A stretch of 10,784 nt of DNA from Planctomycetota bacterium (lineage in GTDB: Bacteria > Planctomycetota > Brocadiia > Brocadiales > Bathyanammoxibiaceae), in assembly GCA_030623665.1 (NCBI GenBank), contig JAUXLO010000039.1:1-10784 (forward strand), given 5' to 3'. The notes under the pieces were generated by a model that was not told the origin of the DNA, made no database searches, and saw nothing but the letters and a program-made list of their open reading frames with translations. The position numbers and the translations under genes were made by a program. Of this stretch, positions 1,208 through 4,244 are shown piece by piece (positions within the stretch are counted from its first letter, which is position 1; every line of letters begins with the position of its first letter).

Positions 1208-3658
1208 TTAGACAGGCTCCATGAGTGTTGCGTTCTTGAATCTTTCCGCCAGGGTCCTTATCTTGGTGGTCTCCCAGTTGCCGAGTCTGGTTTCGTAGCT
1301 GTCCAGTCTCTGGATGCCGTATATGTTGTATGCATTACAGTGGTCGCATTGCTCTGTAAGCCTGGGCGAGAGGCGGTCACATACGGTGCAGACGGTGAAC
1401 TCTGGTGAGATAGTAACTTGGGCCGCCTGCGTGTTCTTAAAGGTCTTTTTGACCAGGTTCATGATGCTGGTTGCGGGAGGTCTTTCCTCTCCACAAAAGG
1501 CATGGATGATGGCACCGGATTCTATCAAGGTGTGGAATTTACTTTGGAGGATTATCCTGGTCAGCATGTCCACTGGAGCGTCTGGCCGGAGGTGGACGCT
1601 GTTTGTATAATAGAGTTCGTCCATTTCCGTGCTTCCTTTTACAAGCTCCCTTGACTGTGGATAATTCTTCACGTCTATCTTTGCCAGTCTTCTCGATGCG
1701 CTTTCTGCCGGCGTTTCCTCCAGCGAGAATTTCAGGTTATATTTTTTCCCCGCCTCTTTTACCTTCTGGTACATGAAGGCGATTATCCTCAGTCCCTGCC
1801 GCAGGGGTTCTTCGCCCTCGTGGAGCTCGGCGTCCATCATGTACTGGAGGCATTCGTTGAGGCCGAGTATGCCGACGATGTATGTTGATTTTTCGAGGTC
1901 CACGTAGGGCCTGCCGTCCTTGGCTTTTCGCCCTATCTGCCAGAGTGGCATCTCGGGACATGACATAAGCTTAGCGATGAATTCTTTCTTTTGAAGATGC
2001 GCCTTGATGCATATCTGTATGGTGTCGTCTATCTCCCTGTAGAGTTCTTCCCAGTTTCCCTTTCCTGCCCTGTAAGCGGCCTGGGGGAGGTTGACCGTGA
2101 CGTTCTGGAACCCGCAGAAGCGCATGCTCTCCGGATTGGTTATCATATAATCGTCCTCTATGGTGGTCCGGAGCCGGCAGCAGGCCGACAGTGTCACTTC
2201 ATCCCTGTCGAAGACGAAGTACGGCACGCCGTTTTCGCTGGCTATCTGGCAGGCGTACTCGAGGATTTTGTATTGGTCGGGGTCATCTAAGGTGTCTTGG
2301 TTTATGTGGAGGTCGCACTTCGGGAAGGCAAAGATATGGCCGTGGCAGTCGCCTGCCCGCCATACGTCCAACATGGCCATGGTGAAACGACGGGCCGTCT
2401 CGGAGTATTTGTCGTAGGTCTTTCCGGTGTATTTTCCTCCGGGGCCTATGGCGGGTATGTCTTTCATGTAGTTTGGCACGCCGGTATGGATGTTGAAATC
2501 TAGAAACAGGGTCTGACCCCCACGAGAAAAGGCGCTCTGGGAGCAACTGTATATGAGGTGCTGGGCCTCTTGGAGGAGCTGCTTCTGGCTCATGCCCTCG
2601 AGATATGGTGCATACAGTATATTTATGTAGCCTATGCCCAGGGCACCCGCATAGTAGGCCTGCATGGAGGCAAGGAAGGTGTTCAGGTGGCCGGTAAGGG
2701 TGCGGGCGTGTCGTGCCGGGGCGGAGACCGTGTCAAGATTATCGAGATGCAGACCGTACTTCTTCAGGTACTCCAGGGAATGGGAGGAGCAGTAGACCCT
2801 TGTCGGGTAACCCAGGTCATGGATGTGAACGGCACCGGAGAGGTGTTTCTCTGCCACGTCCTCGGAAAAGACCTCCTGGAGCGCGTACTGCTTAAGGGTG
2901 TTTTCGGCAATAGCGAGGTTTATTGCCTCCGGGTTGTTGGTGGCAATGTTGCTGTTCTCGTTAACTTTGGAGAATATGAGCTGGTCCAGGTCGTACTTGG
3001 GCATGCCTAGCGTGGCCTGCTTCTTTAGCTGGGTGTCGTAACCCCTCTCAAAGAGTTCGTTATCCACCAGCTCCCTTATCAGGAGGGTGGAGATGCGGCG
3101 GATACCGGAGGCAAAGACCCTCTTTTCTACCACGTTGGAAATCTCTATGGCCTCATCTATGGGGATACCGGCCTCCTTGTCCAGGGCTAACGCAATCTTG
3201 CTCTTGTTCCATTCGGAGGTCTCGTCGTGTATGTCAGTGTCTACCAGCAGGGCCGCATCGGTTGTGTCCCGACCTTTATTTGTCCTTTTCCTGACCTTCA
3301 GTATCTCTCTGTGCCGTGCCCTCTTGTCCCTGTAGCGGATATAGGCCTTTGCCGTCTTGGCATGGCCGGTATTTATAAGTACGTCCTCTACCATATCCTG
3401 TATGTCTTCTATGTTCGGGGTGTTCCCGTTGAATTTCTTTTTCAATAAATGGGAGACCAGCTCGGCCAGTTCGTCAGCCATCTTTCGGTCGTCGCCGCCT
3501 ACTGCGTGCGCCGCCTTGAAAATGGCATTGGCTATCTTTCTTTCGTTGAATGGTGCCAACCTCCCGTCACGTTTTCTCACGGTCTCTATGTGGCTCACAG
3601 GTTCTCTTCCTTTCTTGTTTGCTCGAAAAAAGTCCTTTCCCTTTGTTTCGCTAATCAT
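1208..3658 (-). CDS. nrdD: Anaerobic (class III) ribonucleoside-triphosphate reductase with Ser at the glycyl-radical position
   Basis: The 816-residue product reduces ribonucleoside triphosphates to deoxyribonucleotides in class III reductases. Residues about 24-115 form an ATP cone, the allosteric nucleotide-binding domain. The reductase core then shows HIHDLGYPTRVYCSSHSLEY (Cys290), YAPYLEGMS, SRGGQTLFLDFN and PAIGPGGKYTG. VPYFVFDRDEVTLSACCRL follows, with the adjacent Cys493 and Cys494 where the family carries its thiyl-radical cysteine, and then GLNECLQY. The overall pattern is that of the archaeal/Thermotoga-like NrdD branch. Near the end, Cys757, Cys760, Cys771 and Cys774 make the usual zinc site. 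Thirteen residues after Cys774, where the family has glycine in RxxGY, this protein has RLDSY with Ser787; the tryptophan at +8 and the following basic helix still align. The ATG is preceded by GAGGAAAG, a good ribosome binding site. nrdR is upstream and nrdG downstream. Family assignment is certain; whether it works by the normal radical mechanism is open. Confidence 0.95.
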   Translation of the reverse strand: MISETKGKDFFRANKKGREPVSHIETVRKRDGRLAPFNERKIANAIFKAAHAVGGDDRKMADELAELVSHLLKKKFNGNTPNIEDIQDMVEDVLINTGHAKTAKAYIRYRDKRARHREILKVRKRTNKGRDTTDAALLVDTDIHDETSEWNKSKIALALDKEAGIPIDEAIEISNVVEKRVFASGIRRISTLLIRELVDNELFERGYDTQLKKQATLGMPKYDLDQLIFSKVNENSNIATNNPEAINLAIAENTLKQYALQEVFSEDVAEKHLSGAVHIHDLGYPTRVYCSSHSLEYLKKYGLHLDNLDTVSAPARHARTLTGHLNTFLASMQAYYAGALGIGYINILYAPYLEGMSQKQLLQEAQHLIYSCSQSAFSRGGQTLFLDFNIHTGVPNYMKDIPAIGPGGKYTGKTYDKYSETARRFTMAMLDVWRAGDCHGHIFAFPKCDLHINQDTLDDPDQYKILEYACQIASENGVPYFVFDRDEVTLSACCRLRTTIEDDYMITNPESMRFCGFQNVTVNLPQAAYRAGKGNWEELYREIDDTIQICIKAHLQKKEFIAKLMSCPEMPLWQIGRKAKDGRPYVDLEKSTYIVGILGLNECLQYMMDAELHEGEEPLRQGLRIIAFMYQKVKEAGKKYNLKFSLEETPAESASRRLAKIDVKNYPQSRELVKGSTEMDELYYTNSVHLRPDAPVDMLTRIILQSKFHTLIESGAIIHAFCGEERPPATSIMNLVKKTFKNTQAAQVTISPEFTVCTVCDRLSPRLTEQCDHCNAYNIYGIQRLDSYETRLGNWETTKIRTLAERFKNATLMEPV

Positions 3659-3773: not shown

Positions 3774-4244
3774 TTACTGCCTCTTCTTCCCTTCACGCTT
3801 TATGAGAGGTTTCACCTCTTCCATGAAGTCGCTGATGTCTTTAAACTCACGGTAAACGGATGCAAACCTTACGTACGCCACCTTGTCCAGGCCCTTCAGC
3901 CTTTGCATGATTTGTTCGCCGATGTGCTTGGCGGGCACCTCACGGTCGAATCTGTTATACAGGTCGCGTTCTATCTCAGAAACGGCAGCCTCGATCATGT
4001 CGGTTGATATAGATCTTTTCTCACAGGCCTTCTCAATGCCGATGCGTATCTTGCCCCTGTCAAAGGCCACCCTGCGGCCGTCCTTCTTTATCACCTTTAG
4101 TGGAGTTTCCTCCATCCTCTCATAGGTGGTGTAGCGCCTACCGCAGCTCTGACACTCACGGCGACGCTTTACGTTGAGGCCGTCTGCCGAGGGCCTCGAG
4201 TTTATTACCTTGTCATTGTCCTGCTTGCAATAGGGGCACTGCAT
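3774..4244 (-). CDS. nrdR: Transcriptional repressor of ribonucleotide reductase genes
   Basis: The 156-residue product matches NrdR over its whole length, which is usual for the family. An N-terminal zinc ribbon has Cys3, Cys6, Cys31 and Cys34 (MQCPYC and ECQSCG) with the typical RRRECQSCGRRYTTYER stretch. An ATP cone follows at about residues 46-136 (LKVIKKDGRRVAFDRGKI, then a helical part). The conserved VAYVRFASVYREFKDISDF segment lies near the end. NrdR senses ATP and dATP through the cone and binds paired 16-bp NrdR boxes in front of reductase genes. Here it is the first gene of the leftward cluster with nrdD and nrdG. Box-like sites lie about 220-265 bases upstream of its start, so it probably represses itself and the reductase together. 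No clear Shine-Dalgarno sequence precedes the ATG, but the zinc-ribbon start fixes it. Confidence 0.96.
   Translation of the reverse strand: MQCPYCKQDNDKVINSRPSADGLNVKRRRECQSCGRRYTTYERMEETPLKVIKKDGRRVAFDRGKIRIGIEKACEKRSISTDMIEAAVSEIERDLYNRFDREVPAKHIGEQIMQRLKGLDKVAYVRFASVYREFKDISDFMEEVKPLIKREGKKRQ

Follow-up and report, generated by a model that had tools for sequence, protein, structure and literature searches.

How could a class III ribonucleotide reductase work when the glycine expected to carry its radical is replaced by serine? In this enzyme family an activase abstracts hydrogen from a loop glycine; the resulting glycyl radical, on a loop seated inside the barrel, oxidises a cysteine. 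The window, the whole stretch of 10,784 nucleotides analysed here, comes from a planctomycete draft genome (G000; 196 contigs, 82% complete) and carries nrdD, encoding a class III catalytic subunit, as an 816-aa frame (1208–3658, minus strand) matching Pfam PF13597 (NRDD; 384 bits, cut-off 26.2) and NCBIfam TIGR02487 (NrdD; 375 bits, cut-off 326). Codon 787 reads AGC (1298–1300, minus), placing Ser787 at the radical-glycine site in a loop RLDSY, and the RxxGY motif of class III NrdD is absent from the same polypeptide. Codon reading and alignments alike confirm the original prediction of a serine here; Cys757, Cys760, Cys771, Cys774, Tyr788 and Trp795 also lie where it put them. RITGY of 8p23, which we take to be the NrdD of P. 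copri, aligns pairwise opposite RLDSY, and no other conserved glycine occupies the radical position. All 51 intact-loop NrdDs have Val-Gly-Tyr at 786–788, so that Asp786-Ser787 of the window departs from an otherwise invariant motif.

The rest of the expected apparatus is in place, again as predicted. The ATP cone (residues 26–114; 3317–3583, minus) matches Pfam PF03477 with 104 bits, and the four-cysteine zinc site (1337–1390, minus) is complete. The activase gene, nrdG2 (1–435, minus; radical SAM; TIGR02495, 154 bits, cut-off 131; PF04055), is cut by the contig edge, its partial product being of the NrdG type that accompanies class III enzymes. The nrdR regulator gene lies upstream of nrdD (3774–4244, minus; TIGR00244, 196 bits, cut-off 125). 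Between nrdD and nrdG2 lie two small open frames (518–832 and 880–1095, minus) with no Pfam match.

Comparison of 51 intact with 43 decayed NrdDs (leaving out a duplicate window row, the short G200 and G357, the tailless G024 and G049, and the other-type G121 and G186) revealed change throughout the radical loop, which spans residues 777–806 in the window protein (1241–1330, minus). None of the 13 loop columns invariant in intact NrdDs is still invariant in the decayed ones (44% cell agreement), as against 148 of 171 such columns in the core (98.6% cell agreement). The nine cysteines checked (Cys290, 448, 493, 494 and 515, and the four of the zinc site) are kept in 43/43 decayed rows, the window protein included, and Trp795 (1274–1276, minus), a possible docking element, in 40/43. 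One decayed row (G004) is merely cut after the zinc site, and in four (G003, G005, G313 and G367) the site itself is Gly although the rest of the loop has decayed. The radical-site residue is Ser in 13 of the 43 rows, and T, E, G, D, C, P, A, N, L, K, H, I or a gap in the rest; in f1, the family to which the window belongs, S, D, N and G all occur there. Loops of family f4 lack one residue, and in f39 the loop is missing altogether. Among the best 120 proteins listed as nearest to the C-terminal part of NrdD, the closest loops are RLDSY, RLDGY, RLDDY, RSDNY, RTDSY and RIDSY; Scalindua-type proteins have a loop one residue shorter without the glycine motif, others, among them one named Anammoxibacter, have CCS-type loops, and ordinary RIVGYF or RIVGYY is found in Brocadia, Jettenia, Wujingus and other Planctomycetota. 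On these alignments, the original observation holds but covers too little: decay extends over the entire loop, and Ser is one of several states. Two NrdD homologues of family f55 (L281 in G186 and L282 in G121) have RIADY, with Asp at the glycine site, and retain the zinc cysteines but not Cys290, 493, 494 or 515; these probably have a different, non-reductase function.

A search of the window genome for other reductases, as had been proposed, returned a partial class II enzyme (two PF02867 matches on contig C11) and no second NrdD catalytic gene. PF13597 gave two matches, the window NrdD and a 30-residue stretch on contig C43 with an intact NrdD-type radical loop, TRIVGYYSRTSNWNKSK. This stretch is the end of a 125-aa open frame (L125; C43, 3855–4229, minus) that carries TRIVGYYSRTSNWNKSKIGELKDRHRGNYSV, an NrdD-type radical loop, and the small RxxGY protein that the original prediction had suggested looking for is thus present. 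Its loop motif is TRIVGYYSR, and an alignment of 46 relatives shows no variation at Gly95 or around it. The only Pfam match of the standalone protein is PF13597 (23.4 bits, just below the cut-off of 26.2), and the PFL-type Gly_radical domain (PF01228) was not found in it by Pfam; as a small standalone protein with an intact glycyl-radical loop, it nevertheless resembles GrcA/YfiD. The gene is not adjacent to nrdD, and its neighbours on C43 encode a SLOG/TIGR00725 protein, a phosphomethylpyrimidine kinase and a Memo-like protein, none of them reductase genes. At E ≤ 0.001 there are 300 relatives; among the 120 listed, the named taxa are Planctomycetota, mostly Brocadiales, and most entries are annotated as hypothetical protein. 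A PFL-type partner was considered and rejected, PF01228 occurring in 6/62 Brocadiales genomes, always in frames of >800 aa, and in none of the contigs of the window genome.

Conservation of the two loops differs between families. In f1 the NrdD body has a mean pairwise identity of 0.88, as against 0.52 for the NrdD loop and 0.90 for the standalone loop, and in f4 the corresponding values are 0.90, 0.66 and 0.97; in f3, where NrdD loops are intact, they are 0.92, 0.96 and 0.93. As far as sequence conservation tells, constraint is shifted from the NrdD loop to the standalone loop, with the enzyme otherwise retained.

The reading that we favour, with a probability of roughly 0.85, is that the window NrdD is half of a split class III reductase that would receive its radical in trans from the standalone protein. 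NrdD, its own loop decayed, would contribute the barrel and cysteines together with zinc site and ATP cone. NrdG2 would install a glycyl radical on Gly95 of the small protein, whose loop would dock in the NrdD barrel at the place of the built-in loop, perhaps guided (this is a guess) by the kept zinc site and Trp795, and the radical would then pass to the active-site cysteine of NrdD. AlphaFold models were too weak to show docking of the small protein on NrdD. The window protein is most likely, then, a homologue that would work like a class III enzyme only together with the small protein. The original prediction had left four explanations side by side; that of a separate glycyl-radical subunit is well supported, a standalone loop protein being encoded both in this genome and in others across Brocadiales, and the other three (base-call error, inactive enzyme and unusual serine chemistry) fare poorly, as set out below.

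NrdD tail and standalone frame were read in each of 62 Brocadiales genomes, including that of the window. The tail is decayed in 26 (eight in f1, two in f2, one in f3, 14 in f4 and one in f5) and intact in 31, all in f3 (presumably Brocadiaceae); it was not seen in five, being cut at a contig end in G004, with no NrdD found in G011, G047, G050 and G051. A standalone gene is present in 58/62 genomes (the profile gave 60/62, and G023 and G037, where the sole match was the genome's own NrdD tail, were excluded), and TR[IV]VGY is kept in all 63 distinct standalone sequences of the order. Standalone genes accompany 24 of the 26 decayed loops (exceptions G009, 96% complete, and G061, 77%) and 29 of the 31 intact ones (Fisher p = 1), and because they are equally common with both, co-occurrence inside the order proves little. 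A lone decayed loop, RIGDYF, occurs inside the intact-loop family (L062; G035, Brocadiaceae) with a standalone gene present, apparently a recent separate loss. Second, divergent standalone copies are found in four Brocadiaceae genomes (L103, L102, L104 and L098 in G015, G025, G026 and G029, respectively); that of L103 is probably prophage-borne, since viral record L292 has an identical one.

Across the 392 phylum genomes searched, the standalone profile identified further small frames, most of them in f39. NrdD was sought in 23 of the genomes with such a frame and in the genomes of seven named loci (30, some duplicated). Among the 23, the loop is lost in 18, intact in G362 and cut in G132 and G350, with no NrdD found in G296 and G288. 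As a control, RIVGY or RVVGY is kept in 12/12 same-type NrdDs from phylum genomes without a standalone gene. Against the split reading, as with G009 and G061, the loop of G113 is lost and no standalone gene was seen there (73% complete); its genus mate G132 has one. Outside the order, the phylum sample thus comprises decayed loops with (18) and without (1) and intact loops with (1) and without (12) a standalone gene (Fisher p = 7e-7), a value given little weight because it ignores relatedness. Left out of this table are two RIADY NrdDs, tails cut at contig ends (G071, G132, G149 and G350), ten high-scoring T4-like NrdDs (three of them read) and three further ones, and all lower-scoring PF13597 matches; for some genomes the phylum searches scored only part of the first-look candidates. 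The T4-like NrdD frames of G089 (L285, 317–2672), G283 (L284, 348–2634) and G336 (L267, 1–1063) run no further than the zinc site or its vicinity, and the glycine loop is encoded in a frame of its own that follows or overlaps them; these are apparently independent splits, or assembly frameshifts.

A tree of the NrdD body (77 rows) implies about six changes between intact and decayed loops, at least three of them forced by well-supported branches. Where standalone status is known, 36/39 rows with decayed loops and 18/29 with intact loops have a standalone gene, and an independent-pairs test on this tree was not significant. Intact NrdD and standalone protein also occur together in three Elusimicrobia-type genomes, the search around one of which covered five genomes. 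Their joint presence in Brocadiaceae, G362 and Elusimicrobia would fit an order of events in which the spare part came first and dependence later: the small protein was probably at first a replacement part for NrdD damaged by oxygen and may have become indispensable, several times, where the built-in loop was lost.

One alternative is that the window NrdD is inactive and fading, with a class II enzyme making dNTPs and the small protein a relic or in some other role. The partial class II reductase of the window genome is compatible with this, so that NrdD could be dispensable there, and class I/II reductases (PF02867) are present in 40/62 genomes of the order. Against it, the core of decayed NrdDs is conserved to the extent given above, the window genome has no PFL-type glycyl-radical enzyme for the small protein to serve, and decayed NrdDs are the only reductase found in several genomes. 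Six order genomes with a decayed loop and a standalone gene (G001, G002, G052, G053, G055 and G058; 86–95% complete) gave no match to PF02867 or the NrdJ model TIGR02504, positive controls G007 and G046 being matched by the latter. PF02867 is likewise absent from all 16 genomes of f39, in which the loop is lost in 14/14 window-type NrdDs found; the genomes are mostly drafts, and missing reductases could be assembly gaps. G336 of f39 also has parts of a second, T4-like NrdD. An inactive enzyme, the second of the explanations originally offered, is accordingly unlikely.

A radical on Ser787 itself, of the kind known from the aminoacyl radical enzymes of PMC11528403, is very unlikely. Seryl alpha-carbon radicals exist in PFL-like enzymes (same source), and Ser is the commonest residue at the site, though in the short Scalindua-type loops the aligner chose where it falls. 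The site nevertheless drifts across the 43 decayed rows, varying within f1 itself and lying in a shortened loop in f4 and a missing one in f39, and in that source the known seryl enzymes are PFL-like, with NrdD only the outgroup of their tree. Ser is not conserved in f1, and Pfam and NCBIfam place the window protein in NrdD rather than among PFL-like enzymes.

Even more doubtful is a small protein that acts only as an emergency spare after oxygen damage, the window NrdD using another radical entry. Standalone genes do accompany intact NrdDs (29/31 in the order, G362 and the three Elusimicrobia-type genomes), but a decayed loop leaves nothing of NrdD's own to be damaged there, and conservation has been lost from the NrdD loop while being kept in the standalone loop. 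A sequencing or assembly error at 1298–1300 has next to no probability in spite of the 196-contig draft, being refuted as a full explanation by relatives with the same Ser in separate database entries (P0122 and P0126–P0128) and by a loop that is non-standard throughout the family.

Standalone loops are also found in viral records. In IMG/VR, 57 loci (L291–L347) match the standalone profile: one full NrdD and 56 standalone frames, which amount to 40 distinct sequences and share R[IV]VGY throughout. No NrdD catalytic gene was seen in 29 of 30 such viral records searched, but the records may be fragments and the absence counts for little. One standalone gene (L303, 3001–3444, plus) is flanked by genes for a portal protein and a head-decoration protein, and is therefore phage-borne. 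Phage record G442 encodes an NrdD (L348, 1483–4206, minus) that has long in-frame, possibly intein-like inserts and ends after the zinc cysteines, as well as a 106-aa standalone protein (L322, 2959–3276, plus), and is possibly a complete split reductase in one phage. One viral standalone query had no matches in INPHARED annotated phages; in PHROGs the host standalone had none, and of four viral queries two had none and two were weak (E 0.02 and 0.09). The phage copies suggest a simple means for phages to raise or protect the host dNTP supply; if the split reading is correct, phages would supply a radical subunit of their own and so put the host reductase to work.

More broadly, we think it rather probable that these genes represent a further reductase architecture, in which the class III radical sits permanently on an exchangeable subunit, with several origins, probably from spare parts, as the only route to DNA precursors in some families, and exploited by phages. 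The evolution of a separate radical subunit would then become testable in living systems. Class III NrdD and spare-part proteins are each known; most likely new is class III chemistry with its radical store on a detached subunit. In the portions of the sources available, a review table assigns the stored radical of class III to a glycine within the enzyme (PMC4390871), class III genes are recorded in two anammox MAGs with the glycyl loop unmentioned (PMC9909701), and nothing on a detached NrdD radical loop appears in PMC3019208, PMC9531940 or PMC12288474. No report of such a protein was found among the literature matches listed, a scope with subscription papers and bioRxiv mostly outside it. 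Whether glycyl-radical enzymes other than PFL have spare-part proteins is posed as an open question in the accessible text of PMC8683613; the present case bears on it, and would show how a spare part could turn essential.

The nearest known systems are GrcA/YfiD of E. coli and Y06I of phage T4, the latter a phage spare part serving PFL (PMC8683613, as far as its accessible text goes). In these, as here, a small standalone glycyl-radical loop has been copied from a larger enzyme, and phage versions exist in both cases. The loop here is of NrdD rather than PFL type and the likely partner is a ribonucleotide reductase, and the built-in loop has been lost for good in many lineages, so that the part would be obligatory. 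According to PMC12338860, formate production by E. coli PflB G734A depends on GrcA, none being made in its absence; as a full-length enzyme with its glycine replaced, working in vivo, this is the closest precedent for Ser787. Compared with the class III NrdDs of P. copri, T. maritima and T4, the window protein shares fold family, ATP cone, cysteines, zinc site and NrdG-type activase, but the radical glycine would lie outside the catalytic polypeptide. The aminoacyl radical enzymes also have Ser in place of the radical glycine, although there, according to the part of PMC11528403 available, the residue is the radical carrier in another family, whereas here the site drifts freely. The split class II enzyme NrdJa/NrdJb is likewise a reductase in two chains, although in the accessible parts of PMC4390871 and PMC9669993 the split is not of a glycyl loop. 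In class I NrdA/NrdB the stored radical is in a separate subunit, as proposed here (PMC4390871 and PMC9669993, same parts), but the NrdB-type subunit is a metal-containing protein of the ferritin type, unlike the small loop protein. A class III enzyme that takes its radical from another polypeptide would nonetheless resemble the class I layout.
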